The position numbers were made by a program, and so were the translations under genes. Under the pieces are notes generated by a model. That model made no database searches. It had not been told where the DNA came from and was given only the letters and a program-made list of their open reading frames with translations. From positions 26,333-90,332 of IMG/VR virus record IMGVR_UViG_3300025141_013863: 64,000 nucleotides of DNA, one strand, 5' to 3'. Positions 27,701 through 56,988 of the stretch are shown here, piece after piece (within the stretch, counting starts at the first letter, position 1; each line of letters starts with the position of its first letter). The stretch is from a virus.

Positions 27701-28109
27701 AGATCAAAATGATCTATCGTATATATGGCAGAATTTAGCGCCAAGAGATTATAAAAAAATATCCTTTCAATATGAATCAGTTGCACATGAGCTTATGGAC
27801 ACTGAATTGCTGACGGAGGCAAACTTAGTAGATAATGAAAACTTAAGATGGATGGTCTTTAAAGTAAAACAGCGTTCCGGCACTCACTATTATGATCTAA
27901 CGACTGCTCAAGCAGGCCAAGCCTCAAAAGATGTATTTAGCTTTGATGATGATACTTCTGGATACAAGCTTGGATTCAATTGGCCTTATGATTATTTATC
28001 TTTTGTTGAGCTAATTAAGATGGATGCGGAAGTTCTTTTTAAATCATCTGACGATACAGATACCACAAATGGCTCAACTGATGTATATGGCGAACTGGAG
28101 AGCGAATAA
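18693..28109 (+). CDS. Giant baseplate wedge-like protein with LamG/concanavalin-like domain (3138 residues)
   Basis: This is the largest gene in the window. The first 130 residues are a helical wedge-like region. Residues about 205-410 form a LamG/concanavalin A-like module: TVEFWLKTGS, KWHHYAFVMEN, IKFYVDG and GSMDEFRYWKVARTAREI are its typical strands. A helical region follows (about 560-640), then many Ser/Thr/Gly-rich beta segments. The C-terminal 350 residues (DKFGNKIKGTN to the end) are helical and charged. T4 gp7, which occupies this position, has 1032 residues. This protein is three times that size and probably combines wedge and receptor-facing functions. Start ATG 18693 overlaps the gene before by 11 bases. 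Confidence 0.7.
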   Translation: MSIKKLFDSQRSKNYLSETDEREAFADIESSRNMKAISKRQKTFVPQIDYTKPERFARYGSAYLYYKSAIEWIHDYYPYDGSDAEINEYRNKLLDIERYIFDNIYPRTNGFVTFANPHDGGWGGTTNDPDDSDGYGIPSTLEYITFKGGPGTGSAEDGALSSLVPNPYNEKIKHANIYDEDIYTNAGLPATYGSGSRESNLKANFNTGVTVEFWLKTGSAIPLSTLNNETEKQVIFDMWNNNADTTHDYGRITIELNGTASSGSPFIVTVQSGNANPGIFQQSIGADIDVDTLSKWHHYAFVMENTGSGHAIKFYVDGDYNDVLAHTGSFGELPQKDMMGRLGALLTTPSETTATGSLAGAGKLSGSMDEFRYWKVARTAREIGLNWLDQIRGGVNTDISNTTLGVYYKFNEGITTVAATDSVVLDYGGRVCNGVWTGYGSNSRATGSAMVLASGSAISSEYKDPIMYSNHPDVSALKTALLNSGSYHDRQNNSSMLSMAPSWIIEEDEDHGSEFTTNLRYVSHIVGTYFDKLYLQIQSLPKFKQAGYTSASYTPFPFAQHMPQSMGLVSPELFIDASVMEKFLNRNQTGSFEGDLAETKNLIYLNLYNNITNIFKSKGTEKSIRNVFRCFNLDESLIRLNAYADNTTYLLRNNTLQTLINKNSINFNQKQNTNAVIYQKQYTGSAYEPAPNDVIADDTIGHISGSWGIGYNATNAPDDRGIEDPYGFTMEADITFPTFYRTQDRFDRNFLTGSLFGLYTVPSGASGYPLTRIKNGTDTTWITSLGNNAAGDSEKGPDAANFQVFAIRDSEYSKNIRFMISSSNEPTPIPLLTSSTFYDVYSDSRWNLSVRIVPSLTSSYGAAGIVSGSRESESNYDLIFNGYHNEVGTIQNSFKLTASIDYDTAVNFLNAAKRVYAGARRTNITGAILNQTDVNINSIKYWTKYIEDGVLEQHANDLTNAGISASYQNTSPRDLNSFGHDILNLNTLALHWNFENITGSDSNGNFYITDMSSGSSEIRDNFGWAGNWAGYQHTGYGFGFSTSSTNVVEKNAINYFKFIDPERVVSSDMVQILSSDDRVFGTDDVVPDYYFTVEKSMYNAISEEILDFFAGVVDFNNIIGEAVNRYRHRYKSLEKLREIFFRKVSNTKDVEKFVDYYKWFDDSLTTIISQLIPASADFENDMMNIIESHVLERNKYQTKFPTFDFKEPDLDFAMKGAKESSYSWKDGSSTIPASPRSTKKNRLYWDRRAERSATELSSSRSTNSPTVNSTIDGQREKFKTIIYSNPHMSQSTRLSYTSTGTSYDIGAHRSRSYGGLYNLQYDSYIGSGSTIKGGTNFTDNKNIDFTYNALRPAGPVNNDGTIFVPQNVILGFANDLVELHETHQWETDKYPRILTKRYLKTLHGRNFEYDGTGYSNVKSSFAFPFNIVSSSIKSGYNKVVTDRVTGGIEIVNLHHDTYGDSFEIPMQGPFTNTHVGGHQSRHIAINTGSDQWYNRPEAWKILLGTSDLGTHNLTGAIGMVGPDYPWPEANERGGSSPGAWISPYPMTASHKAWLYRGMVAKSPVNIRNILTTTGSRVLGNYQRNYEIVQSVGAYENARAFIEEQPTLPSTVYLSHSGSTTNVRTLLDLRRESGSHFKFVDEYNAGYLTGTENKSIMLSRFAAPGGIEVMGRGYLDFRASEYSVYNSLLNRNLTVIKPSQGPTGSYSELVGSGTAGIRVFDIHGKDFGLRSHLARHSARFGRDSMFVTSSNDMPGASYDQLPSFHKLNRNRRAVIKITNAGDIFSPKTITTATASKYDNYYVSYPIPRSDRQYSWVTGSITGSDIRFYGHARIHGEQAGLFSSSANGYVAYFDYVSASSVVPQLTQSLYQPTTRLNILTHDPLTASGDNNTLGHATTIDYDEYFNKTIVDRFQIENFLTTSANYFNLLMTRRGGTFGWNWKRLRIQDHPILVDQYLSSTFTRAAITDDDVTTYSLPPVSMRGRPLLINYSQDDSDTTLKITHNNEKIYFNSTTLNDELGLPNMETVTAYDQVLSIIQSADYSLNWIMYCENVFPSLRNEFVSSSRERIGFDNKFWRDASIDRLAVGNALKNSFGVRSPAVSQSCWPLDAPANFLTRSKVPNVGTGGGDHDFFEEGQAGELQNTYFAYHTGAAKTSDEVFTFMAPAALYARKHTLSSPFSVASPSGMDIPETGSISIGVPFWKGSSQIDIYAGEAVWEAGSQAGIVTVSGSTSIFQATASIPWFNDYDDYKEDLLLLARDYSIIPEFRISEHIEDYIKYGLASKNKSNTFEIPGTSINSSTSSFYVDYSNSEFMTEFLNIKQDSLLDATEIRLVCSAAIRFNPYKGFYPAQRTLDLVSQFSRSYGDGLFASKKGDGTQFSVAGEELIKNRPGLLRPLMTTLYSPGILFNSIKSGLAVNYPGITDTRKLSASYYGKSKLENTENWMITPALPPNSTKVGYRGGEFWDIKVPFEAILAPEKYIAGIQFLDIEPHPSCSLNATASLGAASDEIYSMMASNFLGEVGSFFLKDNMFTQLASEPVTDDLRFTSGSVYGARIKLRRSVSGSRGYLLESGSVGGSDPYDLTGGRIYDSTLGAYQNGAFPIPQDPRATNKSFQESFTMYSRPSAFGPPVAGQPDSTGSKDSVVLASDPLDSVNGYYWSFTPPYYNGEAWCDVIFRPDSTKSYDLEQILAEASLVYWRADPGIGTGSAGYLGSNPVLISSFGSASFTNADNYIYSGHNVNANAMQISASINLLGVERVLQQEEDKFGNKIKGTNITAAKRWVIQPKWETPMLNFGNQGVHPITENDGNLTLPDYGKASVPRGMWHQFGIMPESPDKGIFLEIGDIPKDWLKNHYDVLTNDTVYNNDDADTGDKVFKEMQSLTDLAGFKSSTSKRLGEIAESKIIREAVVAVPYVIQNEAGISNEASALTSTMKSLISIPKQRYEAAMSSAKGTAEGDSLDAAGESIRKLVQKMERYVLPPQFDFLTNPDVDPVVMYIFEFKYILDQNDLSYIWQNLAPRDYKKISFQYESVAHELMDTELLTEANLVDNENLRWMVFKVKQRSGTHYYDLTTAQAGQASKDVFSFDDDTSGYKLGFNWPYDYLSFVELIKMDAEVLFKSSDDTDTTNGSTDVYGELESE

Positions 28110-41868: not shown

Positions 41869-42123
41869 ATGGCTAGAAGAAAAAACACAAAATTTATTGA
41901 TCCTCGTTATTTTATGGACGAGAAGGAGGAGGCGCTGAGTGAGGCTACAGATCCCCACGATCAGCCCGCCGGCGGCGAATCGGGCCAAGATGATCCAGAC
42001 AAGATAGAGAAATGTAAAAGTGAAGGTGGAAAATGGAGATACGCCAAAGAGTCCAAAGGCCCCGAATCCAAAAGCTATGATCTCTCTAGAGGCTTGAAAG
42101 GCTATTGCGAAAAAAAGAAATGA
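41869..42123 (+). CDS. Small charged protein, function unknown
   Basis: An 84-residue hydrophilic protein after a TAGGAG site. It starts MARRKNTKFIDPRYFMDEKE, has a disordered Pro/Gly/Asp-rich centre, and ends in a Cys/Lys-rich segment (KCKSEGGKWRYAKESKG ... GYCEKKK). Two cysteines may form a disulfide or metal site. No family is recognised. It is linked by an ATGA overlap to the first gene of the shared-N-terminus set. Confidence 0.5.
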   Translation: MARRKNTKFIDPRYFMDEKEEALSEATDPHDQPAGGESGQDDPDKIEKCKSEGGKWRYAKESKGPESKSYDLSRGLKGYCEKKK

Positions 42124-42170
42124 AAATCACAAAATCCCAACTTAAACAGATTATTAAGGAAGAGCTTGAA
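42120..42170 (+). repeat. Shared 51-base gene start, copy 1
   Basis: The first 51 bases of this gene match the starts of the genes at 46121 (49 of 51 by eye), 42577 (47) and 48085 (46). The match ends soon after, with unrelated coding sequence downstream. Confidence 0.8.
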
Positions 42171-42440
42171 GAAGGCTTAGGGGATATGCTCAAGAAAATG
42201 CGCCGCCGCCATCATATTAATCGCGCTGGTCAAGAAGAAGAGTTCATGAATCAGTATTATATCGACGTTCGTGATGAAGATGGTAGCTTGATAAAAAGAC
42301 ATTCGTATCGAGATCATACTGATGAGTCAGCATGGGAACATGCTGAAAAGCTTAAACGAGAGCTACGTCTCGCCGGAGAAGAGCTTGAGATTATTAAAGA
42401 CACTGAAGACGGAGAGGTCAACTTGGGGTCAATCTTTTAA
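42120..42440 (+). CDS. Candidate head-targeted internal protein 1 (MKITKSQLKQIIKEELEE start)
   Basis: The chosen start is ATG 42120, because it places the shared N-terminal segment at residue 1 and makes the usual ATGA overlap. It has 106 residues. Residues 1-18 match those of the genes at 42577, 46121 and 48085 almost exactly and contain I12-K13-E14, a fit to the T4 gp21 cleavage consensus. The rest (basic KKMRRRHHINRAGQ, then YYIDVRDEDGSLIKRHSYRD with helix) is not related to the other members. It may be packaged in the head and delivered to the cell; this is inferred from T4 internal proteins. Confidence 0.6.
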   Translation: MKITKSQLKQIIKEELEEGLGDMLKKMRRRHHINRAGQEEEFMNQYYIDVRDEDGSLIKRHSYRDHTDESAWEHAEKLKRELRLAGEELEIIKDTEDGEVNLGSIF

Positions 42441-42580
42441 TGCTAAGAAAACTTTCACGATATCTTTTTAAGAAAGGCATAAGCGATTTGGAGCTTTTAA
42501 AGATATTGGGAATTCTTGGAATGGCTACATTTGTTATGGGAATGATGCTCTATGGAGCGATCGGGGCACTATTATTATGA
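42440..42580 (+). CDS. Small single-span membrane protein
   Basis: A 46-residue gene between two shared-N-terminus genes. It starts ATG 42440 on the last base of the previous stop and ends in an ATGA overlap with the next start. The first 20 residues are basic (MLRKLSRYLFKKG), and residues 19-46 are hydrophobic and Gly/Met-rich (ILGILGMATFVMGMMLYG), forming one transmembrane helix. The tight overlaps on both sides support translation. Its function is unknown; a holin-like or inner-membrane effector role is possible. Confidence 0.6.
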   Translation: MLRKLSRYLFKKGISDLELLKILGILGMATFVMGMMLYGAIGALLL

Positions 42581-42627
42581 AAATCACAAAAACACAACTT
42601 AAGCAAATTATTAAGGAAGAGCTTGAA
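42577..42627 (+). repeat. Shared 51-base gene start, copy 2
   Basis: Differs from copy 1 at about four positions, two of them in the sixth codon (aca for tcc) and two silent changes in the ninth and tenth codons. Confidence 0.8.
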
Positions 42628-42924
42628 GAGGCTGCGGCTTCTTATCCTCTTAAAAACGTAGATCAAGATAGCGTGACTGCAGGCGCCCCCGGCGAGCAAG
42701 CCGTTATGCAAACAAAAAGAGCGCCAAACAAACAAGAAGAAGCATCGCAGCTTTTTGGAGATCGTATGAATATCGACGTATCTATGCATGCTTATCGCAT
42801 AGGTCAGCATTTAGGCGAAGAACACCTTGTTAAAAATGTAGCTAAAGCTTTGCAACTGTCTGCTCCCCATGCCGCCGCGGCAATGATCTTAGGCGCCCAA
42901 CATGGATTTGGGGACGACGATTAG
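42577..42924 (+). CDS. Candidate head-targeted internal protein 2
   Basis: A 115-residue protein whose residues 1-18 are MKITKTQLKQIIKEELEE, including the I-K-E motif. The remainder is unrelated to copy 1. It has a Pro/Ala/Gly linker and a helical C-terminal domain (HAYRIGQHLGEEHLVKNVAK, then PHAAAAMILGAQHGFGDDD). After cleavage at Glu14 it would leave about 100 residues. The gene ends 80 bases before the promoter and start of the Mre11-Rad50 fusion. Confidence 0.6.
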   Translation: MKITKTQLKQIIKEELEEAAASYPLKNVDQDSVTAGAPGEQAVMQTKRAPNKQEEASQLFGDRMNIDVSMHAYRIGQHLGEEHLVKNVAKALQLSAPHAAAAMILGAQHGFGDDD

Positions 42925-43004: not shown

Positions 43005-46000
43005 TTGAAGTTTGCACATATAAGCGATACTCATATCAAAAATCTGAAGTATCATTACGAGTATAGGATTGTCTTTGAACAATTATACGAAACATTACGA
43101 GAACAAGAAGTCGATTACATCGTTCACTGCGGCGACATCGCACACACGAAGACACAAATCTCACCAGAGTTTGTGGAAATGTGTTCTGGCTTCTTCCGCA
43201 ACTTAGCGGAGATTGCTCCCACATATATTATCTTGGGTAACCACGACGGCAACTTAAAGAACAGCAGCCGCCAGGATGCACTCACACCGATTGTGGATGC
43301 GTTAAACTTAGCCGGACTCAACTTGCTCAAAGATTCTGGCGAAACACACTTGGACGATAAGTTCTGCTTGAATGTGCTTTCGGTCTTCGATCGAGAGAAG
43401 TGGATAAAGCCAAGCAACCCAGACAAGATCAACATCGCGCTCTATCATGGCTCAATTAGCAATTGTAAAACCGATATGAATTGGACGATGGTTAATGGCG
43501 AAGACACAATCACAATCTTTGATGACCACGATTTCTCAATGCTTGGGGATATCCACAGGCGCCAGTTCTTGGACGAAGAAGGCCGCGTATGGTACGCAGG
43601 CTCTACCGTTCAACAGAATCACGGCGAGACTAACGATAAGGGAATTCTAATTTGGGATATTAAATCAAAGGATGATTGGGATATTGAGCCGATTGTGCTC
43701 AAGAATCCAAAGCCGTTCTTTACAATCCCTCTCACATTGAAGGGCAGGATGCCCCGCAAGATTGACGTGCCAACTGGCGCCAGACTTCGCCTTGTTAGCA
43801 CCAATAACTTGCCGCTTGATGTTATGCGCAGAGCAATGGATATTGCCAAGCACAGGTTTAAGCCAGAAAGCATTTCGTTTCTGAATCGTGCTAGTGGTGA
43901 GCGCGGGAATGTGCAAGACATTACTGATGGACTGAGAACAGAGAACCTACGAGATCCAAAGATTCAAGAAGAGCTGATGGATGAGTATCTTAAAGACTAT
44001 CAGGTCCCCGCTGAGACTATGGAAAAAGTTTGTGAGCTTAATCGTACTTATAATAAAATTATCGAAGAGAAAGAGGAAATAGCACGAAATGTAAACTGGA
44101 AGCTCAAGTCGTTCCAGTTCGATAATCTATTTAATTATGGAGAAAAGAATGCTGTCAATTTTGATAGGCTTAATGGTATTGTTGGTATTTTTGGAAAGAA
44201 CTTTAGTGGTAAAAGCAGTATTATCGACGCTGCTCTTTATACTCTTTTTAATACAACTTCAAAGAATGAGCGAAAAAACCTCAATGTCATCAACCAGAAT
44301 AAAGATAGCGGACGAGGAAGACTTAAGATTGAGGCCAACAACGCCACGTACACAATTGAACGAGAGTCCACAAAGTACGTAAAGAGATTAAAGGGGGTTG
44401 AAACTCAAGAAGCAAAGACTGATTTAAACTTTGAGATGCGAGATCACATCACTGATGAGGTAATTTCACTTAATGGCACAACACGTAACGAGACTGATGC
44501 AAACATTCGCAAGCATTTCGGAACTATCGATGACTTCATGGTATCGTCGTTGGCCTCCCAACACGGAGCGCTCGCGTTCATTGACGAAGGTTCAACGCGA
44601 CGAAAGGAAATCATTGCGAAGTTCTTAGATCTGGAGGTTTTTGAGAAGAAATTCCGAATGGCAAAGGAAGATTCTGTCGAAGCCAAGGTAATGCTTAAGA
44701 AGCATGAAGATAAGGATTATAATGAGGAGATCGACACCGTGAATGAAATGTTAGAAGATCATCGCGATAGTGTAGTAGCCAATAAATATTTTTGTACCGA
44801 ATTAAGGGAGGGGCTAGCCCTCTTGCAAGATAGTCTGGGCGCCCTAGATACACAAATCTCCGCAATTCCTAACGAGCTTATTGATATCGCCAAACTTCGC
44901 GAAGAACAAAAGGGTAAGACCGAGAAAGTTGCACTGCTTACAGAGAAGATCCGGGAGCAATCGCGAGAAATTACGAGAAAGAAGAGAGTAGTTGATGATT
45001 CTAAAAGTAAGACTAATAAAGTTGACATCGCCAAGTTCATGAAGCTTCAGATGCAGATTGATCAGTTGCGTGAAAAAGAAAAGGAACTCAGAGAAGAACT
45101 ATCCGAGATCAAGAAAAAGGAAAAGCTATTAGAAGAGCACGAATACGATCCGAATTGTAAGTTCTGCTGTGAAAATAAATTTGTTAGGGAAGCTCATATC
45201 GCTGTCGCCAGCAAAGATCTCGCAGAGCACGAACTTCGAAATGCGACAGTTGATTTGAACGCTCTTAATCCAGCCGACGTGTTCACTAAACTTATGGAAC
45301 ACAGCCGCCTCATTGAATTGATTAAGAAGATTGAAGCAGAAACAACGCAAACCGATCTTGAGCGAGAACGCAACAAAACTGTCAAATCAAAGATCGAACT
45401 CGCTCTTAAAGACATCTCTTCGAAGATTGCTGAGTATGAGGACAATAAGGAAGCAATCGAGAACCTTGAGAAGTTGCTCGGCGAAAAGCGTTCTTTAGAA
45501 AAGAGCATCGAGAGCAATAACAAGAAAATCATATCTTGCGAAGAAGAAACACTTGACCTCGTTAAACTTGTGGGCTCCTACGAGCAGCGTGTAGAAACGC
45601 TGCGAGAGCAAAAGCAAGAATATCACGATCTAAGATCTTCATTCGCAGCATACGATTTGTTTATGCGCTGTATGCATCCAAACGGAATTGCTTACGATGT
45701 TATCAAAAAGAAGATCCCAGTAATCAATCAAGAGATTGCCAAGGTTCTCGCCAACATTGTGGAGTTTGAGATTTTCTTTGAGAGTTCTGGCAATAAGTTT
45801 GACATCTTTATCAAGCACCCGCAATACGATGAGCGCCCGATTGAAATGGCTTCAGGTGCAGAGAAAACGATGGCTGCGATGGCTATTCGGTTGGCGCTTC
45901 TATCTGTGTCTTCACTGCCCAAGAGTGATTTATTCATTCTTGATGAGCCGGGAACAGCGCTAGACGAAGAAAATATGGAGGGTTTTATTCGAATCTTGGA

Positions 46001-46121
46001 ACTAATTAAAGTGTATTTTAAGAACGTTTTGCTTATCTCACACCTTGATTCGCTCAAAGACTGCGTTGATATGCAAATTGTTATAGACAAAAAGCGCGGA
46101 TACGCAAGAGTAAATCAATAA
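43005..46121 (+). CDS. Mre11-Rad50 (gp47-gp46 / SbcDC) fusion protein
   Basis: A 1038-residue protein starting at TTG after TGGAGGG. Residues 1-330 form the Mre11-type phosphoesterase: HISDTH, HCGDIAH, ILGNHDG, LYHGS and LGDIHRRQ are its metal-binding motifs. Residues 360 to the end form the Rad50-type ATPase: Walker A FGKNFSGKSS near 397-406, a long coiled coil with a CKFC zinc hook near 718, signature SGAEKTMA near 950, and Walker B LFILDEPGTAL near 975. T4 encodes these as separate genes 47 and 46, together about 900 residues. The complex processes DNA ends for recombination-dependent replication and host DNA breakdown. Fusion fixes the subunit ratio. Confidence 0.93.
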   Translation: MKFAHISDTHIKNLKYHYEYRIVFEQLYETLREQEVDYIVHCGDIAHTKTQISPEFVEMCSGFFRNLAEIAPTYIILGNHDGNLKNSSRQDALTPIVDALNLAGLNLLKDSGETHLDDKFCLNVLSVFDREKWIKPSNPDKINIALYHGSISNCKTDMNWTMVNGEDTITIFDDHDFSMLGDIHRRQFLDEEGRVWYAGSTVQQNHGETNDKGILIWDIKSKDDWDIEPIVLKNPKPFFTIPLTLKGRMPRKIDVPTGARLRLVSTNNLPLDVMRRAMDIAKHRFKPESISFLNRASGERGNVQDITDGLRTENLRDPKIQEELMDEYLKDYQVPAETMEKVCELNRTYNKIIEEKEEIARNVNWKLKSFQFDNLFNYGEKNAVNFDRLNGIVGIFGKNFSGKSSIIDAALYTLFNTTSKNERKNLNVINQNKDSGRGRLKIEANNATYTIERESTKYVKRLKGVETQEAKTDLNFEMRDHITDEVISLNGTTRNETDANIRKHFGTIDDFMVSSLASQHGALAFIDEGSTRRKEIIAKFLDLEVFEKKFRMAKEDSVEAKVMLKKHEDKDYNEEIDTVNEMLEDHRDSVVANKYFCTELREGLALLQDSLGALDTQISAIPNELIDIAKLREEQKGKTEKVALLTEKIREQSREITRKKRVVDDSKSKTNKVDIAKFMKLQMQIDQLREKEKELREELSEIKKKEKLLEEHEYDPNCKFCCENKFVREAHIAVASKDLAEHELRNATVDLNALNPADVFTKLMEHSRLIELIKKIEAETTQTDLERERNKTVKSKIELALKDISSKIAEYEDNKEAIENLEKLLGEKRSLEKSIESNNKKIISCEEETLDLVKLVGSYEQRVETLREQKQEYHDLRSSFAAYDLFMRCMHPNGIAYDVIKKKIPVINQEIAKVLANIVEFEIFFESSGNKFDIFIKHPQYDERPIEMASGAEKTMAAMAIRLALLSVSSLPKSDLFILDEPGTALDEENMEGFIRILELIKVYFKNVLLISHLDSLKDCVDMQIVIDKKRGYARVNQ

Positions 46122-46171
46122 TGAAAATCACCAAATCCCAACTTAAACAGATTATTAAGGAAGAGCTTGAG
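46121..46171 (+). repeat. Shared 51-base gene start, copy 3
   Basis: Differs from copy 1 at two positions (acc for aca in codon 4 and gag for gaa in codon 17), the closest pair in the set. Confidence 0.8.
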
Positions 46172-46468
46172 GAAGCCTTAAATGAAGGCCACCGCCTTCC
46201 CGGTTCTGTTTATGATCCGCAGGGCGAACCCGAGATTGCATCTCCTCACAGAAAGAAACCACAAAGAAGCTATGGAAGCGGGATGAGTGATGCCGATAGG
46301 GAAGCTCACGAAAAGCGACAAGCTGAGAGAGATCCCGATAGAGAATATATTGATATGGTAAAAGGCCTTATGCGGAGGATGCCGGGCACACGTGTCCTGG
46401 CCACTGATGAAAAAAATCGAGAACTTATCGCGACGGCCGAACAAGAATTTGAAATGGAGCAACAATGA
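46121..46468 (+). CDS. Candidate head-targeted internal protein 3
   Basis: A 115-residue protein beginning with the shared segment, identical in protein to copy 1 through residue 18, then ALNEGHRLPGSV. The rest is hydrophilic and basic/acidic mixed (RKKPQRSYGSGMSDADREAH), with an RRMPGTRVLATDEKNRELIA strand-helix end. It lies between the Mre11-Rad50 and tubulin-like genes, its start on the former's TAA and its stop overlapping the latter. No similarity to the other members outside the N-terminus. Confidence 0.6.
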   Translation: MKITKSQLKQIIKEELEEALNEGHRLPGSVYDPQGEPEIASPHRKKPQRSYGSGMSDADREAHEKRQAERDPDREYIDMVKGLMRRMPGTRVLATDEKNRELIATAEQEFEMEQQ

Positions 46469-47604
46469 GCACAAAAGACAACGATAACGAATTTGATTTT
46501 CTGCCGCCAGCAGAGCCACCACCTTCGTTTAATCAAGAGAAAGATCACTATCATGAAGAAGTTGATGCACAAGATTTCGGAATGGTTGAGGACTTTGGAT
46601 TACAGATGGAATACTCTGATGAAGATCTCCTCCCAGAAAATACTGCTCCTTCCTCTATTAACGTTGGCTTCGTTGGTGTCGGCGGTGGCGGAAACAAGAT
46701 GGCTAACGCTTTCATCGAGCTTGGCTTCAATAAGACATTGCTTGTGAATACCACAGGCAAAGACATTCCGAAGAACGTGGAAGAAGACCACGTTGTTCTT
46801 ATTCCCGATAGCGATGGCATCGGTAAGAATACAGAATATGGAAAGGAAGTATTCACAATGAACGGCGCCGTTATTGAAGACGCGCTCCGCATTAAACTTG
46901 GAAAGGTGGACTGGCTGTTTGTTCTTGCTGGTGGAGGCGGCGGAACTGGAAGTTCTGTGACTGCACTTCACCCGGTATTCGAACGCTATATGAAATCCGT
47001 TCAGTCTTCTGGAAAAGTTGTTTATGTGGTTTCTTGGCCAACAGCGCAAGAAAACCTCAACCCCACAATCGCTCGTAATGCGTTGACGCTGGCAAATGAT
47101 GTTGCTCAGTATCCGCATATTGTTCTCGACAACGAGCGAGCCACTCGCTTGCTACGCGGCAGAATTGGTATGCTTGGTATGTATCCTGTTGCTAATACAC
47201 AATTTGCTAAGTCATTTGCGCAGGTGTTAAAGTTATCAACTGAAGACTCTCCAATCCAATCTTTCGACAGCAAAGATTTGGAAACATGCTTGGGCAATGA
47301 CGGGAGAGCTTTTCTCGGCTCAACCATGATAAAAGATCCAAATACTGGAAAGCTTGGATCGGTGATCCTACACAACTGTATGAATAGGTCTGCCTGCCCA
47401 CCACCTAAAGGAAAAGCTGCAGCCGGCTCCCTAATCTTAGTGGCGTCTGAGGAAATGGTGGCAGATCCAAGAGTTAGTAAAAACATTGAGTCGGCAATCG
47501 CTTATGTCGGCGGCCGATGCGAGACACTATTCTCTGGCGTTTACGTGCGCAAGAATGTGCCTGGATTGATTGCGATACTAAGTATGAATGGATTAACGAT
47601 ATGA
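46465..47604 (+). CDS. FtsZ/tubulin-like protein
   Basis: A 379-residue protein. An acidic, Pro-rich N-terminal extension of about 64 residues precedes the GTP-binding domain. INVGFVGVGGGGNKMANAFI is the N-terminal FtsZ glycine loop. LVNTTGKDI matches the FtsZ AVNTDAQAL strand, and FVLAGGGGGTGSSVT (about residues 150-165) is the tubulin signature loop. By eye, PVANTQFAKSFAQVL then DGRAFLGSTM aligns with the FtsZ T7 region NVDFADVKTVM...YAMMGSG. The Asn is kept, but the two catalytic aspartates appear as Gln and Lys. It probably binds GTP and may polymerise, but hydrolysis is doubtful. Jumbo-phage PhuZ positions DNA or a phage nucleus; this protein is not clearly PhuZ. Confidence 0.8.
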   Translation: MSTKDNDNEFDFLPPAEPPPSFNQEKDHYHEEVDAQDFGMVEDFGLQMEYSDEDLLPENTAPSSINVGFVGVGGGGNKMANAFIELGFNKTLLVNTTGKDIPKNVEEDHVVLIPDSDGIGKNTEYGKEVFTMNGAVIEDALRIKLGKVDWLFVLAGGGGGTGSSVTALHPVFERYMKSVQSSGKVVYVVSWPTAQENLNPTIARNALTLANDVAQYPHIVLDNERATRLLRGRIGMLGMYPVANTQFAKSFAQVLKLSTEDSPIQSFDSKDLETCLGNDGRAFLGSTMIKDPNTGKLGSVILHNCMNRSACPPPKGKAAAGSLILVASEEMVADPRVSKNIESAIAYVGGRCETLFSGVYVRKNVPGLIAILSMNGLTI

Positions 47605-47858
47605 AACCAGATATGTGGAAAATATTTACACTTGTATTAGGGGCAATTATTATGCCTCTTGCAGGCTGGGTGTGGTCTGTAAATGTAGAAGTATCTCAAT
47701 TAAGAAATGATATGGGAGACTTGGAGCGACAAGTTGCAGAACTTGAAGAGCAGGTTGATGAGCAAGAAGAAGCAACGAGAACACTAATTAGAGTTGAGAG
47801 CGATCTTGCTCACGTTAGAAGTATACTTGATAGAATTGAGGATATTGTAACGCGATGA
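47601..47858 (+). CDS. Membrane-anchored coiled-coil protein
   Basis: The start is ATG 47601, in an ATGA overlap with the tubulin-like gene. It has 85 residues. Residues 5-26 form one transmembrane helix (WKIFTLVLGAIIMPLAGWVW), followed by a coiled coil (LERQVAELEEQVDEQEEATR). An N-in, C-out topology with a periplasmic coil would resemble an inner-membrane spanin, but membrane tethering of the neighbouring tubulin-like protein is also possible. It overlaps the next gene by four bases. Confidence 0.6.
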   Translation: MKPDMWKIFTLVLGAIIMPLAGWVWSVNVEVSQLRNDMGDLERQVAELEEQVDEQEEATRTLIRVESDLAHVRSILDRIEDIVTR

Positions 47859-48085
47859 AAACTATTCTTCTATGTCTCATGCTTGCAGCTATTACATTAC
47901 CAATTGATGTAGATAGATTAAAAGCTGATTTATCTGATATGGAGCGGGATGCTTTGGCACTAGAGTTATATTTACAAGACAAGCAAGATCACGAAGATTA
48001 TTGCCCGCATATCAGTTGGAATCAGCCACCACTAAGTACTTATAAAGAGACATTAATATCACATTTGCCAGAAGGATGTAAATAA
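47855..48085 (+). CDS. Small exported protein
   Basis: A 76-residue protein with a signal-peptide-like start (MKTILLCLMLAAITLPIDVD). The rest is helical and acidic, with two further Cys (YCPHISW and EGCK) that could pair in the periplasm. The Cys at residue 7 lies inside the hydrophobic core, so it is not a standard lipobox. It may form a pair with the coiled-coil membrane protein before it. The role is unknown; an outer spanin is one option. Confidence 0.5.
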   Translation: MKTILLCLMLAAITLPIDVDRLKADLSDMERDALALELYLQDKQDHEDYCPHISWNQPPLSTYKETLISHLPEGCK

Positions 48086-48135
48086 TGAAAGTCACAAAAT
48101 CCCAACTTAAGCAGATTATCAAGGAAGAGATAGAA
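48085..48135 (+). repeat. Shared 51-base gene start, copy 4
   Basis: About five differences from copy 1 (gtc for atc, two silent changes, and ata for ctt). Similarity drops after the glutamate run. Confidence 0.75.
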
Positions 48136-48534
48136 ATTCTTTTAGATGAAGGAATCATGGATCGTATCCGCAAAGGATTTGATAAACATGCCCGTTCGGG
48201 ATTTTTTGGGACAGGACCAACAAGCAAAGAGCTAAAAGGAGCAGCCAGGGTTGGAAGGAAGCTTACACAAAGAAGCTCAACACAACAAAAAGCAAAAGAA
48301 TTTGCTAACGAACTTCTTAATCGCGAATACAATAAATTAGAAAATTTATGGCGCGATGATAAGCGAGAGCTTAAAGCTTTGCGGGCTTATGTCGCAAAAC
48401 AAATAGAAAGTTCTGGCCAGGATATATTGGAGACTTTCGTGACAAGCGTTATAGTTAATAGACTACAAGCCGATGAACTTGAAAGTCGTAAGACTGGCGC
48501 ACCCGAACCGGAACCAGAAGGAGAAGACAAATAA
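48085..48534 (+). CDS. Candidate head-targeted internal protein 4
   Basis: A 149-residue protein starting MKVTKSQLKQIIKEEIEILL, with I12-K13-E14. The following DEGIMDRIRKGFDKHARSGF is basic, and the rest is helical (LLNREYNKLENLWRDDKREL) with an acidic Pro/Glu tail. The start codon shares a base with the preceding stop. Outside the N-terminus it is unrelated to the other members. Confidence 0.6.
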   Translation: MKVTKSQLKQIIKEEIEILLDEGIMDRIRKGFDKHARSGFFGTGPTSKELKGAARVGRKLTQRSSTQQKAKEFANELLNREYNKLENLWRDDKRELKALRAYVAKQIESSGQDILETFVTSVIVNRLQADELESRKTGAPEPEPEGEDK

Positions 48535-48535
48535 A

Positions 48536-49039
48536 ATGAAAATCACACTTGAAAGATTGCGACAAATTGTTACCGAGGAGGTTATCAAAGAAGAGATCGC
48601 GCCAGAAGATGCTCAACGCACTATTGTAGCGTTATTGCAGGGCATCCCACCAAATGTAACCGGCGATATTATGGGCGCCGTGTATGATGAAATGTATGAC
48701 GCCGATGTTTCAGAACCTCAGCCCGAGCCAGAAGAAGAAAGCTTTCCCACAGAGTATCAGCCCGGCGGCGCCGAAGGCGATCGCCCCACGATGGGATTTA
48801 AAGAAGACTTAGAAAAAATCATCCAAGAAGAGTTGGAACAACTTATGAGAGAAGAGACTCCGGTTGGTTCAGATCCTAAAGAAATCACTGCCGCTTTTAA
48901 AGCTGTCCCGGACGAAGCTTCGAAACTGGCCCAGCGAGTCCGCGCCGATATAGTAAAAATGACAGCAGAATCTCCTGCTGATCCAATGTCGGTTGCCACT
49001 ATGGTTGCTGGCCTCATAACAGCAGAGTATAGACAATAA
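48536..49039 (+). CDS. Candidate head-targeted internal protein 5, with a second internal copy of the segment
   Basis: The best start is ATG 48536 (167 residues); an upstream in-frame start would overlap the previous gene by 60 bases and lose the shared N-terminus. It begins MKITLERLRQIVTEEVIKEE, a divergent form of the segment. Near residues 87-105, FKEDLEKIIQEELEQLMREE looks like a second copy with an I-Q-E motif. The first part between them is helical, then Pro/Glu-rich. The C-terminal third is Ala-rich and helical. If both sites are cut, two mature fragments would result. Confidence 0.55.
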   Translation: MKITLERLRQIVTEEVIKEEIAPEDAQRTIVALLQGIPPNVTGDIMGAVYDEMYDADVSEPQPEPEEESFPTEYQPGGAEGDRPTMGFKEDLEKIIQEELEQLMREETPVGSDPKEITAAFKAVPDEASKLAQRVRADIVKMTAESPADPMSVATMVAGLITAEYRQ

Positions 49040-49057
49040 AGAAAAAGGAATGAAGTA

Positions 49058-49252
49058 ATGCAAAAGTATGTACAAGGAAAATTAGATAGATTAGTAGAGA
49101 AGGCAATTTCTCGTAAGTTTATGGTTTGGTTGACGGCTACTGGGCTGTTTGCCTTTTATGATTTGGCATCCAGCGACTGGGTTATGATCTCGGCAATTTA
49201 TATTGGCGGTCAGGCTATAATCGACGGTATTGCCAGAATGAAAGGTGTGTGA
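49058..49252 (+). CDS. Small holin-like membrane protein
   Basis: A 64-residue protein after an AAAAGGAATG sequence. A basic amphipathic N-terminus (KYVQGKLDRLVEKAISRK) is followed by two hydrophobic helices (FMVWLTATGLFAFYDLA and WVMISAIYIGGQAIIDG). I recall similar proteins in T4-like marine phages. Small size, two spans and a coiled-coil membrane protein right after it suit a holin in a lysis cassette. No endolysin is adjacent. Confidence 0.55.
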   Translation: MQKYVQGKLDRLVEKAISRKFMVWLTATGLFAFYDLASSDWVMISAIYIGGQAIIDGIARMKGV

Positions 49253-49662
49253 TGATTAGAGTTGACTGGCTTAAAGTTCTTGCATTTGTGAAGAAAAATT
49301 GGAAAGAAATAACAATTATCGTCCTTTTACTTACAGTTATTGGAAAAATGCGTTATGATTATAAACAACTGCAAAATACGTATGAAACCAGCCAGCAATC
49401 TCTTCAGAACCAAATTGATGGTTTGCAAGAAATTCACGCTGAAGAATTAGAGAAAAAAGAACAAGCATTGCAACAATATCGCGATGCCCTAGATTTATTG
49501 GAGAGAGAATATGAAAAAGAAAGAGGAAAGATTGAACTGGTGGTTGAGGAGAGAGTTGTGGAAATTGAAACAACAATCGATAACCGGAAACAATTCACCG
49601 AAAACAAAGAAGAACTCGCAGAACAAGTAGAAGATACATTCGGATTTCAGTATGTTCCTTAA
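49252..49662 (+). CDS. Inner-membrane spanin-like (Rz-like) protein
   Basis: The chosen start is ATG 49252; a GTG one codon upstream is equally possible. It has 136 residues. A single N-terminal transmembrane helix (ITIIVLLLTVIGKM) precedes a long coiled coil (QSLQNQIDGLQEIHAEELEK and onward) ending in a short GFQYVP tail. This is the layout of an i-spanin, which works with an outer-membrane partner to fuse the envelope at lysis. It overlaps the next gene by 11 bases. Confidence 0.55.
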   Translation: MIRVDWLKVLAFVKKNWKEITIIVLLLTVIGKMRYDYKQLQNTYETSQQSLQNQIDGLQEIHAEELEKKEQALQQYRDALDLLEREYEKERGKIELVVEERVVEIETTIDNRKQFTENKEELAEQVEDTFGFQYVP

Positions 49663-50065
49663 AGCACTATTATTTTCTATGGCGGCTCACGCAGAACCGC
49701 CACAGTTTACTATTGTTGGACAAGACGAGCCGGCCCCTTTTGAGGGTGTTTTGTTTAATAAGCGAGGCATTGCGGAGCTACTGGTGCTTCCAATGGAATA
49801 TCGTCTAGAGTGCGATCTAGAAGTAGAGTATCAGATAGATGTTCAGGCAACCGAGTTTCAGCTTGAGCGTCAAAATTTTCAAATTCGTTTAGATGCACTT
49901 ACTAAAGAATATGATCTGCGCATTGAACAGAAAGATATTGAAATTGTTGCGTTGCAAAAAGCAATGTTAAAACAGGCGCCCTCTAATAAGTGGTGGTGGT
50001 TCGCCGGCGGAATAGCCGCTGGTGTTGCAACAACTTATGGCGTATATAGAGTGTTTAATGAGTGA
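49652..50065 (+). CDS. Exported coiled-coil protein with C-terminal membrane helix
   Basis: A 137-residue protein. The signal peptide MFLKALLFSMAAHA is probably cut before EPPQF. The middle is a coiled coil (VQATEFQLERQNFQIRLDAL). The C-terminus has one transmembrane helix (WWWFAGGIAAGVATTYGVY). This places a periplasmic coiled coil anchored at the inner membrane. Next to a spanin-like gene it may belong to the lysis cassette, though a single-span signal plus C-anchor is not a standard spanin. Confidence 0.55.
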   Translation: MFLKALLFSMAAHAEPPQFTIVGQDEPAPFEGVLFNKRGIAELLVLPMEYRLECDLEVEYQIDVQATEFQLERQNFQIRLDALTKEYDLRIEQKDIEIVALQKAMLKQAPSNKWWWFAGGIAAGVATTYGVYRVFNE

Positions 50066-50694: not shown

Positions 50695-51254
50695 TGGCCA
50701 AGAAAAAAGAACCAGTTTCAGTTTTAGATATTGTTCGTGGCTTGGCCCAGGCCGCCGCGAATGCTTATGACGGGGCGCTAACAGAAGATGGAGACGCGCT
50801 CAAGGCCGGCCTCCAAAGAGAAGAAGGAAACCCGCTGCTTGATAAGAGGGTTTTAGATGGCTTTGGTGTATCTTTTTATGGGCCCATGATGTGTATTAAA
50901 TATCATTCCGAAGTCCAACTAAAAGAAGTATACGCTAACGGATTTGAGGGCGACATGGATCAAAGAATAGCAGACATTTCTTCGTTTCTTAAGAAAGAGT
51001 ATCGTAAAGTTACCGGCAAATCTGTAAGCCTAACGAAAGAAGGCGAGATAGACATACATGTAGAGAGCACATCGAGAGTCCGCTCATGGGTCACAGCAAA
51101 ACAGCATTATAAAATTGGTGGTATGGAAGACGTTGTAGTGGTTGGAGAAGCTTCCGAGGACAGACTTGAGGCCGGCTGGCGCAGCTTTCTCGATCAGGGC
51201 GGTCTAGGTAAGCGACCCAAAAACGATACAAGACCAAAGCCAAAAAATGATTAA
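50694..51254 (+). CDS. Conserved structural-cluster protein, function unknown
   Basis: A 186-residue protein immediately before the terminase, with single-base stop/start overlaps on both sides. Residues 1-60 are Ala-rich helix (LDIVRGLAQAAANAYDGALT). A mixed domain follows (FYGPMMCIKYHSEVQLKEVY) and the C-terminal tail is Lys/Pro-rich. The position before the large terminase suggests a packaging or neck protein. No small-terminase motif is recognised. Confidence 0.5.
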   Translation: MAKKKEPVSVLDIVRGLAQAAANAYDGALTEDGDALKAGLQREEGNPLLDKRVLDGFGVSFYGPMMCIKYHSEVQLKEVYANGFEGDMDQRIADISSFLKKEYRKVTGKSVSLTKEGEIDIHVESTSRVRSWVTAKQHYKIGGMEDVVVVGEASEDRLEAGWRSFLDQGGLGKRPKNDTRPKPKND

Positions 51255-52840
51255 TGAGCTTTCAACTAGACAAGAAAGAAAGAGTAAAAGAGATTCTTAA
51301 GTGTGGAAAAGATCCCTCTTACTTCCTTAATAACTACGCAAGAATATCGCACCCATTACATGGACTTATTCTTTTTAACACTTTCGACTTCCAAGATGAC
51401 CTCTTGGAAAATTTTAATGATTATCGTTTTAATGTTATTCTAAAAGCGCGCCAGCTTGGAATCTCAACGATCACCGCAGGTTATATCGTATGGATGATGT
51501 TGTTTCATCGAGACAAGGCTATTCTCGTTATGGCTACCAAATTTGCGACAGCTGGAAACTTAGTTAAAAAAGTCAAGAGCATCATGCGCAATGTTCCAGA
51601 TTGGCTGAAGATTGCAAAGATTAGTGTCGACAACCGCACATCTTTTGAGCTTTCTAATGGTTCTTCGATTAAGGCCGCCTCGACTTCTGGCGATGCTGGT
51701 CGTTCAGAGGCATTGTCCCTTCTTGTTCTTGACGAGGCTGCCCATATCGAAAACCTTGAAGAGCTGTGGACTGGTCTATATCCTACGCTTTCTACTGGTG
51801 GTCGCTGCATTGCCCTATCAACGCCGAACGGTGTTGGTAACTGGTTTCATAAAACGTGCACGGACTCCGAAGCCGGCACGAACAACTTTAATCTTACAGT
51901 GTTGCAGTGGGATGTTCACCCCGAAAGAGATAAAGACTGGTACAAGAAAGAAACAAAAAACATGTCCAAGAGACAGATTGCACAAGAACTCGAATGTAAC
52001 TTTAACACTTCAGGTGAGACAGTCATCGATCCAGAATGTATGGAATACTTATTATCCACAATTTGCGAACCAAAGCATAGAACCGGCTTCGATCGCAATT
52101 TTTGGATATGGGAAGAATTTGATCCTACCTGCAATTATTTAATGGTTGCCGATGTTTCTCGCGGCGACGGTGCAGATTTTTCTACATTTCATATCGTTAA
52201 ACTTGAAACGCTAGAAATTGTGGGAGAGTATCAAGGCAAGCCAACAATTGATATGTTTGCGAATATGCTAAACAGCGTTGGGAGAGAATTTGGTGGCTGT
52301 ATGCTTGTGGTCGAGAATAACAATATTGGATATTCTGTATTGGATAAACTTATAAATGATTTTCGATATCCAAATGTTTATCATTCGATTAAGTCAACAC
52401 ACGAATATATTGAACAACATCAGGCTGAGATAAGAAATTCGGCAGTTCCAGGGTTTACCACTTCGATGAAGACGCGCCCTCTCATAATAGCCAAATTAGA
52501 GGAGTTTATCAGAAACAAACTAATTACGATATATTCTTCTCGCACAACTAATGAGATGAAAACTTTTATTTGGAGGAATGGTAGGCCGCAAGCAATGAAA
52601 GGCTACAATGATGATTTAATTATGGCGCTCGCAATTGCATGCTGGGTAAGAGACACAGCATTGCAGGCAAATGCAAGAGATTTAAATTATCAAAAGGCTT
52701 TTGTTAATGCGGTTTATACTACAAGAACCACCATGAATACTCAAATCAAAGGTCAACAAGGCTACAAAAGAAATGAAGTTTTTGATAAAATGACTGAAGC
52801 AGAGAAAATGTACACACAATATAAGTGGATCATAAAGTGA
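51254..52840 (+). CDS. 17: Terminase large subunit (T4 gp17-like)
   Basis: A 528-residue protein. The ATPase domain has an adenine-binding and Walker A-like segment ILKARQLGIST (about residues 63-73), motor Walker B LLVLDEAAH (about 155-163) and motif III ALSTPNG. The nuclease domain begins MVADVSRGDGADFSTF (about 296-311), whose Asp residues bind metal, followed by VVENNNIG. The enzyme cuts concatemers and drives DNA into the prohead at the portal. The length fits the family (T4 gp17 is 610 residues). The portal gene follows after seven bases. Confidence 0.93.
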   Translation: MSFQLDKKERVKEILKCGKDPSYFLNNYARISHPLHGLILFNTFDFQDDLLENFNDYRFNVILKARQLGISTITAGYIVWMMLFHRDKAILVMATKFATAGNLVKKVKSIMRNVPDWLKIAKISVDNRTSFELSNGSSIKAASTSGDAGRSEALSLLVLDEAAHIENLEELWTGLYPTLSTGGRCIALSTPNGVGNWFHKTCTDSEAGTNNFNLTVLQWDVHPERDKDWYKKETKNMSKRQIAQELECNFNTSGETVIDPECMEYLLSTICEPKHRTGFDRNFWIWEEFDPTCNYLMVADVSRGDGADFSTFHIVKLETLEIVGEYQGKPTIDMFANMLNSVGREFGGCMLVVENNNIGYSVLDKLINDFRYPNVYHSIKSTHEYIEQHQAEIRNSAVPGFTTSMKTRPLIIAKLEEFIRNKLITIYSSRTTNEMKTFIWRNGRPQAMKGYNDDLIMALAIACWVRDTALQANARDLNYQKAFVNAVYTTRTTMNTQIKGQQGYKRNEVFDKMTEAEKMYTQYKWIIK

Positions 52841-52847
52841 GGAATAG

Positions 52848-54860
52848 ATGGCACCAATAAACCCAAAACAAGGAAAAAACCCTGCAAATAGATCATCAAT
52901 GCTTTTTAAATCATTGACAAGATTGTTTTCGGGCCCAATTGTAAATTATAGATCTCAATCGGGTCGAAGAATTAGAAGACAGCATTTAGATAAATTCTCC
53001 TCAAGATTTAAATCTGCATCGGGACAACAGTTTAAAAAATCTTTATATAATCCCCTGGATCAAATTTCAACTAATGCAATCGCGAATCAACGTAGGGCTG
53101 AGCGTTATGTGGATTTTGATCAAATGGAATATATGCCAGAGATTGCATCTACGATGGACATTTATGCCGATGAAATGACGACCTATTCATCTCTTCGACC
53201 GATGTTAAACATTAAATGTCCTAATGAGGAGATTAGGGCGGTCCTTGATGTTCTTTATGAAAATATTTTAAATGTTCAATACAACTTATTTGGTTGGGCT
53301 CGCACGATGTGTAAGTATGGAGACTTCTTTTTATATTTAGATATAGATGAAAAGTTTGGTATTAAATCAGTAATTGTGCTGCCCCCTACGGAAGTTGAAA
53401 GATTAGAGGGATTAGATACAACTAATCCAAACTATGTCCAGTATCAATGGAACTCCGCTGGAATGACATTTGAAAATTGGCAAATTTCTCATTTTAGAAT
53501 TTTAGGTCACGATAAGTATGCCCCCTATGGCACATCTATTCTTGAGCCTGCACGCCGCATCTGGCGCCAGCTAACGCTTATGGAAGACGCAATGATGGCA
53601 TACCGTGTCATTCGTTCTTCTGAGAGAAGATTATTTAAAATTGATGTTGGCGCCATTCCTCCGCAAGAGGTAGAGCAGTACATGCAAAAGATTGTAACGC
53701 AACTTAAGCGTCATTCGGTTGTTGATTCTGCAACCGGCCGCATGGATTTACGCTATAATCCAATGTCTATTGAAGAAGACTATTTTATTCCCATCCGGCC
53801 TGGATCGGCGACAGACATAGTAAACCTTGCAGGAGGCTCAAACACTACGCAGATTGATGACGTTAAGTATCTTCGCGATAAGCTTTTTTCGGCATTGAAA
53901 ATTCCTCAGTCGTATCTTACAATGGGCGAGGGTGCCGAAGAAGACAAGACAACTTTGGCACAAAAAGACATTAGATTTGCAAGAACAATTCAAAGATTAC
54001 AGAGAGTTATAGTATCAGAGCTGGAAAAGATTGGAATTGTTCATCTTTATACGCTTGGGTTCAGAGGAGATGATTTGCTGTCGTTTAGTCTGGCTTTAAA
54101 TAATCCGTCAAAGATTGCAGAACTTCAAGAGATAGAGCATTGGAAGGCTAAATTCGATATTGCCGGCGGCGCCACCGAGGGATTCTTTTCTAGACGTTGG
54201 GTTACGGAGCATATTTTCGGCATGTCTCATGAGGAATTTATACGCAATCAGCGCGAAATGTATTATGACCGCAAGCAAGATGCAGCGCTTCAGGCCGTAG
54301 CCGAAGCCGCAGCTGCAGAAGGTGCAGCCGGCGGCGGCTTAGGTGCAGATGCCGGCGGGGGTCTCGGTGGTGATCTCGGTGGGGATCTCGGTGGGGATCT
54401 CGGCGGTGATCTTGGCGGCGGCGAAGAGATGCCAGCTGGAGAAGCCGGCGCCGAAGAAGCCGGCGGCGAAGATTCAGCTCTACTGGCAGTCCCTCCAGGA
54501 TCTAGAGATTCACCACGTTTAACTCCAAGATCAAAAGGCAAGGCTTATTATCCTGTTAAAAGGGATAAGAGGGCTAGCGGAGCAAGAACACGATCTTATG
54601 CATCGAAATATTCAAAAGAAAAGAGCAGTGCCGCCTTAAGAAATATTATGCCAGGAATACAGGATATTGGCTCTATTGCAAAAATGGGTGGCCTTGCTAC
54701 TGGTATTTATGAACAAGATGAGTCTATTTATAATTTGAGAGAGCAATCAGAGGAAAAGAAACTTTTTAAGGTTAATGAATCTATTCGTAATCTTTTGAAA
54801 GGTTTGGAAGATAATAAGAAAACAATAACGGAACAAAAAGATGAGAATAAAGCACAATAA
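52848..54860 (+). CDS. 20: Portal protein (T4 gp20-like)
   Basis: A 670-residue protein. The core includes YMPEIASTMDIYADEMTTYS and later SSERRLFKIDVGAIPPQEVE, then DDVKYLRDKLFSALKIPQSY, all typical of gp20-like portals. The dodecameric portal is the DNA channel and the site of head-tail joining. A Gly/Leu/Asp repeat and Ala/Gly/Glu-rich stretch (about residues 486-545) forms an unusual low-complexity linker before a basic segment. T4 gp20 has 524 residues, so the C-terminal 180 residues are extra. It overlaps the next gene by 20 bases. Confidence 0.9.
   Translation: MAPINPKQGKNPANRSSMLFKSLTRLFSGPIVNYRSQSGRRIRRQHLDKFSSRFKSASGQQFKKSLYNPLDQISTNAIANQRRAERYVDFDQMEYMPEIASTMDIYADEMTTYSSLRPMLNIKCPNEEIRAVLDVLYENILNVQYNLFGWARTMCKYGDFFLYLDIDEKFGIKSVIVLPPTEVERLEGLDTTNPNYVQYQWNSAGMTFENWQISHFRILGHDKYAPYGTSILEPARRIWRQLTLMEDAMMAYRVIRSSERRLFKIDVGAIPPQEVEQYMQKIVTQLKRHSVVDSATGRMDLRYNPMSIEEDYFIPIRPGSATDIVNLAGGSNTTQIDDVKYLRDKLFSALKIPQSYLTMGEGAEEDKTTLAQKDIRFARTIQRLQRVIVSELEKIGIVHLYTLGFRGDDLLSFSLALNNPSKIAELQEIEHWKAKFDIAGGATEGFFSRRWVTEHIFGMSHEEFIRNQREMYYDRKQDAALQAVAEAAAAEGAAGGGLGADAGGGLGGDLGGDLGGDLGGDLGGGEEMPAGEAGAEEAGGEDSALLAVPPGSRDSPRLTPRSKGKAYYPVKRDKRASGARTRSYASKYSKEKSSAALRNIMPGIQDIGSIAKMGGLATGIYEQDESIYNLREQSEEKKLFKVNESIRNLLKGLEDNKKTITEQKDENKAQ
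54361..54417 (+). repeat. Tandem repeat of a 12-base unit in the portal gene
   Basis: About four to five copies of a unit reading GGTGGxGATCTC, encoding Leu-Gly-Gly-Asp. The unit changes slightly between copies. It lies in the low-complexity linker, and its copy number may vary between relatives by slippage. Confidence 0.8.
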
Positions 54861-56565: not shown

Positions 56566-56988
56566 ATGAAAATGACAAAAAAACAACTTAATAACATTAT
56601 TAATGAAGAGATCGAATCTATGATTCAGAATGGAGAGATCGATGAGGGTTTCCTTGGCCGCACAGCAACCCGCGCCCGAGCTGCCGCTGGCAAGTTAAAA
56701 GATAAAGTTGCCGGCACCTACAAGGGCGGCATGGCCGGCCTAAAAGGAGATGTCAAAGGCGTCGAGGCCGCCATGGCCCAGAAGAAAGGCGCCGAAAAGA
56801 AAGCCCTTGCAGTTAAGGCCGCCCGAACCGTCCGAGCCCACTCAGAGGCCATGCAAAAAGATCTCGATGCGCTAGGTGTGCTTGAGATATATCCCGAAGT
56901 GCGAAGGGCCATTGACGCACTGAACAAAGTTGTTCAAGGAGAGATTGGCCAAGCAGCTGGCATTGCAGATAAGCCTGGAGTTAAATAA
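56566..56988 (+). CDS. Candidate head-targeted internal protein 7 (in the head gene cluster)
   Basis: ATG 56566 is preferred over a GTG six bases upstream because an AAAGGA site lies eight bases before it. It has 140 residues. It starts MKMTKKQLNNIINEEIESMI, a clear member of the shared family with I12-N13-E14. The rest is Ala/Lys/Gly-rich and helical (TRARAAAGKLKDKVAGTYKG, MAQKKGAEKKALAVKAARTV), basic like DNA-associated T4 internal proteins. It lies directly before the protease gene, which supports the idea that the segment is a head-targeting signal. Confidence 0.65.
   Translation: MKMTKKQLNNIINEEIESMIQNGEIDEGFLGRTATRARAAAGKLKDKVAGTYKGGMAGLKGDVKGVEAAMAQKKGAEKKALAVKAARTVRAHSEAMQKDLDALGVLEIYPEVRRAIDALNKVVQGEIGQAAGIADKPGVK

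Follow-up and report, generated by a model that had tools for sequence, protein, structure and literature searches.

A tubulin/FtsZ-superfamily protein with a predicted intact T7 loop in marine phages carrying T4-type structural genes

The window, that is, the whole 64,000-nucleotide stretch of DNA analysed here, comes from a virus record of 90 kb. On its plus strand it encodes a tubulin/FtsZ-superfamily protein (46465–47604, 379 aa), with a fused Mre11-Rad50 (SbcD-SbcC; 43005–46121) as its conserved upstream neighbour and a probable spanin pair (49252–50065) conserved downstream. Further along the same strand are the terminase large subunit of the T4 gp17 type (51254–52840; phrog_2, E 1.4e-50) and the portal protein of the T4 gp20 type (52848–54860; phrog_213, E 6e-69). 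The first spanin ORF (49252–49662) is Rz-like and matches phrog_1152 (E 4e-4); the second (49652–50065) is assigned by position only. The fused Mre11-Rad50, the tubulin and the probable spanin pair were found together in 25/25 loci checked, so the adjacency of tubulin and Mre11-Rad50 reported in the preliminary description holds throughout, and their order is identical in the seven loci for which it was compared. T4-type terminase is present in 24 of the 25 loci and portal in 20, downstream wherever the locus extends far enough. The presence of spanins suggests a Gram-negative host. The Mre11 nuclease and the Rad50 ATPase form one 1038-aa ORF; Microcystis phage Mel-JY01 matches this fusion over its full length, and LR756508 covers it as well.

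The tubulin gene is preceded by a small ORF with the leader MKITKSQLKQIIKEELEE (46121–46468, plus strand; found in 8/25 loci), which overlaps the tubulin start by four bases, and a GGAG ribosome-binding site lies 5' of the tubulin ATG. The product is a genuine member of the tubulin/FtsZ superfamily: it matches PF00091 with E 1.2e-8 (35.9 bits against a gathering score of 33, which two of its relatives also pass) and PDB FtsZ chains with E 3.3e-11 in a single-sequence search (phmmer) and 4e-9 with a profile. The glycine loops are intact, as had been claimed: the T1 loop VGVGGGGNK, which includes VGGGGNK, spans residues 70–78 (46672–46698), and the T4 signature loop AGGGGGTGSS spans residues 155–164 (46927–46956). 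The latter reads GGGTGSS, with Ser replacing the last Gly of the GGGTGxG signature. Residues 1–64 (46465–46656) form an acidic N-terminal extension that is predicted to be disordered; with 18 D/E among its 64 residues, a net charge of -16 and clear conservation, it is just as originally noted. In the AlphaFold model and in the alignments the C terminus comes directly after the last core strand, without a C-terminal tail.

The preliminary description took NTQFAKSF (residues 244–251, 47194–47217) for the T7 loop and concluded that both catalytic aspartates were lost. This is wrong: NTQFAKSF lies inside the core helix H7 (residues 236–257, 47170–47235), and we rejected it as T7 on spacing, on alignments and on the AlphaFold model. 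The companion match of RAFLGSTM to YAMMGSG of FtsZ is correct. In E. coli FtsZ, however, 15 residues separate the Asn of NVDFADV from the Tyr of YAMMGSG (N207 to Y222), while N244 and R281 of the phage protein are 37 apart, and the two pairings are therefore mutually incompatible. The actual T7 loop and H8 start, SFDSKD (residues 266–271, 47260–47277), lies 22 residues after NTQFAKSF, exactly 15 residues separate S266 from R281, and S266-F-D268-S-K-D271 corresponds to N207-V-D209-F-A-D212 of E. coli FtsZ. HMM alignment to FtsZ pairs D268 and D271, rather than NTQFAKSF, with the T7 aspartates. The same placement was obtained with phmmer (PDB FtsZ), profile search, MAFFT and hhalign; for the T7 aspartates of Bacillus phage G gp138 it was recovered with HMMER, MAFFT and hhalign. 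Among 63 pairwise alignments (nine scoring schemes times seven homologues) 62 agree, the remaining one having stopped before T7.

The structure model tells the same story. AlphaFold2 assigns H7 to residues 236–257, T7 to 258–268 and H8 to 269–277, which puts NTQFAKSF in H7 and D268/D271 at the T7/H8 junction. Modelling from 12 near-identical sequences gave a pLDDT of 72 only once phage G relatives and four viral-contig FtsZ sequences had been added (42 before; 26 sequences in the final input, pTM 0.76), and since the input alignment already contained FtsZ, the placement is supportive, not fully independent. N244 sits four residues past Y240, which occupies the guanine-contact position where H7 begins; the equivalents are F182/N186 in E. 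coli FtsZ and Y224/N228 in tubulin. Among 85 full-length family proteins (85–100% identical to the tubulin of the window) S266, D268 and D271 are invariant and Q246 of NTQFAKSF varies; residues 260–275 are almost invariant and are retained in a 62%-identical relative.

Alignments, model and conservation thus all describe the T7 catalytic site as intact. The notion of an inactive T7 tubulin, a GTP-binding cap or a non-hydrolysing filament as suggested earlier, is very improbable. It could draw on Ser in place of the first Asn of NxDxxD and on Ser in place of the last Gly of GGGTGxG; however, the two T7 aspartates are retained without variation, conserved acids being found at the T7 interface in the structure model as well as in the alignments, and phiKZ PhuZ has the identical Ser (S199-L-D-L-M-D, SLDLMD) at what is the sole T7 change of the phage tubulin. 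The 'dead tubulin' story is not worth following.

We then asked how the protein relates to known tubulins. A fold search of the PDB puts CetZ, FtsZ and TubZ on top (E roughly 1e-17 to 1e-20, with most TMq values at 0.6–0.7). The best PDB match is Methanosaeta CetZ (3zid; E 2.6e-20, 22% identity, sequence E 6.7e-10), which is an archaeal cell-shape protein; we know of no N-terminal acidic extension in CetZ. Among viral models an uncultured Caudovirales phage supplies the best match, A0A6J5RW92 ('FtsZ Cell division GTPase'; E 6.8e-21, TMq 0.74), and PhuZ-type proteins follow later at about 1e-10. A0A6J5RW92, of 452 aa and 18% identical, was compared through its fold match; its record means that FtsZ-like phage proteins are already in the databases.

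The closest named relative, annotated as a 'putative FtsZ-like cell division protein', is gp138 of Bacillus phage G (YP_009015441), with a phmmer E of 1e-16 against a small set. It has a canonical T7, NFDKNDL, at the equal place and a matching H7, but it is 24% identical, carries a C-terminal tail, lacks the N-terminal extension and belongs to a far larger genome. Profile comparison with hhalign gives 97.6% for phage G, 96.8% for FtsZ and 0.2% for phiKZ PhuZ. The tree separates three clades, the marine tubulin family, phage G and FtsZ; because of long branches the order among the three is unsure.

With FtsZ the phage protein shares the GTPase domain, the T7/H8 acids and the fold (TMt up to 0.80), but it scores 48.8 with the FtsZ equivalog TIGR00065 against a cut-off of 295.2 (E. 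coli FtsZ control, 471.7), it does not match FtsZ_C (PF12327), which the E. coli control does, it reads GGGTGSS where FtsZ has GGGTGTG, and it lacks the C-terminal tail peptide. PhuZ (phiKZ gp39, 201phi2-1 gp59) is likewise a tubulin encoded by large phages, and the SxDxxD form of T7 occurs in phiKZ too; there is nonetheless no detectable sequence link. PHROG 4733 (PhuZ) reaches only E 0.12, TubZ_C_2 (PF22334) is matched by the phiKZ PhuZ control (E 1.7e-37) and not by our protein, which also lacks the C-terminal helix and acidic knuckle, and an IMG/VR search with the PhuZ query used returned no PhuZ relatives. The tubulin is not an orthologue of FtsZ, PhuZ or TubZ, and we treat it as a distinct subfamily on the grounds of the sub-threshold TIGR00065 score, the unmatched FtsZ_C and TubZ_C_2 domains and the end directly after the last core strand.

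The closeness to FtsZ bears on the proposal of a host FtsZ inhibitor made in the preliminary description. In such interference the tubulin would co-polymerize with or cap host FtsZ, or its N-terminal tail would take Z-ring partners, so that division stops. FtsZ is a known phage target, and in sequence the protein is closer to FtsZ (E 3e-11) than to PhuZ (E 0.12). With T7 intact, however, a dead cap is not indicated and the proposal loses its main argument; co-polymerization is unlikely at 19–26% identity, the gene lies in what its position suggests is a late cluster, away from typical early host-takeover genes, and the phage FtsZ inhibitors that we found in the literature, lambda Kil (PMC3961180) and T5 Hdi (PMC10714956), are not tubulins. 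We regard interference with host division as unlikely.

TubZ of Bacillus plasmids raises another option, namely that the phage genome persists extrachromosomally in a carrier state and the tubulin partitions its DNA. The fold match to TubZ (TMq 0.67–0.69) is as good as that to FtsZ (TMq 0.68–0.69 in this comparison), and the TubZ of a plasmid prophage is a precedent (PMC7950403). Several observations make it improbable: the phage tubulin lacks the C-terminal helix H11 and the flexible tail of TubZ, no iteron array was found in 44500–49300, no tubR was recognized among the neighbours (which include several small ORFs without assignment), and structural genes of the T4 type point to a lytic phage. 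A plasmid database search with the tubulin gave no match.

Within its own family the tubulin is strongly conserved. The N-terminal extension is as conserved as the core, residues 9–64 being 93% identical across the family. The divergent L329 tubulin (IMG/VR contig 3300030419_005853; L329:2048-3178), 62% identical, retains SPIQSFDSKDLE unaltered; its N terminus is acidic and of similar length, with only parts conserved there (FDF, LLPENTA). The terminase of the same phage is 87% identical, and the family is therefore deeper than the close set reveals. Among 94 reciprocal-best orthologues of three 191–196 kb genomes (G001–G003) the tubulin is the most conserved: between G001 and G003, where the median is 56%, its identity is 88.5%, compared with 79% for terminase, 78% for portal and 75% for DNA polymerase III. 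For the closest pair the Jukes-Cantor synonymous divergence of the tubulin is 0.64, the two other pairs are saturated or nearly so, and dN is 0.04–0.10 across the three pairs; the low dN against high synonymous divergence points to strong purifying selection, not recent transfer. The GDP-mannose 4,6-dehydratase of G001 (L226:3155-4126, minus strand) is 87% identical between G001 and G003 and only 26% identical to its G002 match, and has likely been exchanged.

Exactly one PF00091 tubulin is present in each of nine large family records. Where a terminase locus has more than 6.5 kb upstream, the tubulin is found in 8/9; it was not seen at the exception, L307, nor at L300 and L305 (4.6–6.5 kb upstream), contigs that may end short. 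The isolates with the nearest terminases, Mel-JY01 and immuto, share terminase and/or the Mre11-Rad50 module with the tubulin phages, and PF00091 detects no tubulin in them; LR756508 gives a sub-threshold tubulin match only, with a stop. Two scans of GTDB genome contigs with narrow degenerate patterns returned no tubulin relative, and hence no prophage, cellular donor or host was identified.

Judged by sequence and model, the phage tubulin is probably a working filament-forming GTPase. The reading that we place slightly on the likely side is that this active GTPase forms dynamic filaments organizing phage DNA or heads late in infection. As we infer polymerization and hydrolysis, the intact glycine loops would bind GTP, subunits would assemble head to tail, and GTP would be hydrolysed once D268 and D271 of one subunit reach the nucleotide of the next. 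As to cargo and timing, the filaments would most likely arrange proheads or phage DNA late in infection, when packaging takes place, acting as PhuZ spindles do though with no chimallin nucleus. The N-terminal tail, acidic and predicted to be disordered, would probably bind a partner or the next subunit, as C-terminal tails do in FtsZ, TubZ and PhuZ, and may replace the C-terminal tails of the latter two. The PhuZ T7 mutant D190A polymerizes without turnover, leaving the filaments frozen, and PhuZ mutants with impaired catalysis upset the positioning of DNA (PMC4244570); this behaviour, together with the near-invariant intact T7, argues for dynamic, GTP-driven filaments. Conservation and low dN are as expected for a polymer. 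Against the cytomotive reading stand the fact that a DNA- or capsid-positioning role is drawn by analogy from PhuZ, only a distant relation at best (hhalign 0.2%), the lack of a chimallin match, the requirement of PhuZ for its C-terminal tail in filament formation (PMC3678025, PMC4244570), a tail that is absent here, and the missing last Gly of the T4 loop (GGGTGSS).

The gene lies between DNA-processing (Mre11-Rad50) genes and those for lysis and packaging, and such an order suggests that the protein works alongside one of these processes. Filaments at the membrane that aid head assembly or time lysis instead of moving cargo, and so form a scaffold linked to the virion or to lysis, would suit the neighbouring spanin pair, terminase and portal, as well as a TM/Rz-like ORF that overlaps the tubulin 3' end. 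Given that this ORF is detected in only 14/25 loci, it is not a fixed partner, and gene proximity by itself is weak evidence; we think such a scaffold quite unlikely.

A GroEL-type chaperonin is present in all three 191–196 kb genomes, accompanying the tubulin; in jumbo phages, too, tubulin and HSP60 are found together (PMC7824862). In G001 this GroEL/TCP-1 family protein is encoded at L229:14548-16125 (minus strand; PF00118, E 1.7e-64), and the copies in the two other genomes are 67–73% identical to it. Of the phiKZ proteins chimallin, PhuZ and RNA polymerase beta, none had a match in the three genomes. A more specific proposal, possible but tentative, is that the tubulin subfamily is widespread among marine phages of 190–196 kb that have T4-type heads and drives a nucleus-free cytomotive system there, with the N-terminal tail, in place of a C-terminal one, serving polymerization or cargo binding and with the phage's own chaperonin.

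The phage tubulins known so far come mainly from jumbo phages that form a nucleus (PhuZ) and from a plasmid prophage (TubZ). Our literature search, mostly open-access, returned PhuZ and TubZ work and jumbo-phage reviews, and no tubulin in T4-type marine phages. Here each large genome checked from a group of abundant uncultured marine phages with T4-type structural genes has one tubulin copy, with chimallin undetected, which raises a testable question: of what use is a tubulin to a phage without a nucleus? The conserved acidic N-terminal tail offers a concrete handle on its function.

The one large genome that was partly annotated encodes DNA polymerase III alpha, a B12-type ribonucleotide reductase and a DnaB-type helicase. 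Two ORFs of the window are very long, at 2209 and 3138 aa (8198–14827 and 18693–28109), and lie near baseplate genes. Five small, otherwise unlike proteins of the window open with the shared MKITKSQLKQIIKEELEE-type leader (42120–42440, 42577–42924, 46121–46468, 48085–48534 and 56566–56988), and comparable leaders occur in related genomes. T4 internal proteins carry a head-targeting leader, and the MKITKSQLKQIIKEELEE-type leader may be one of this kind.
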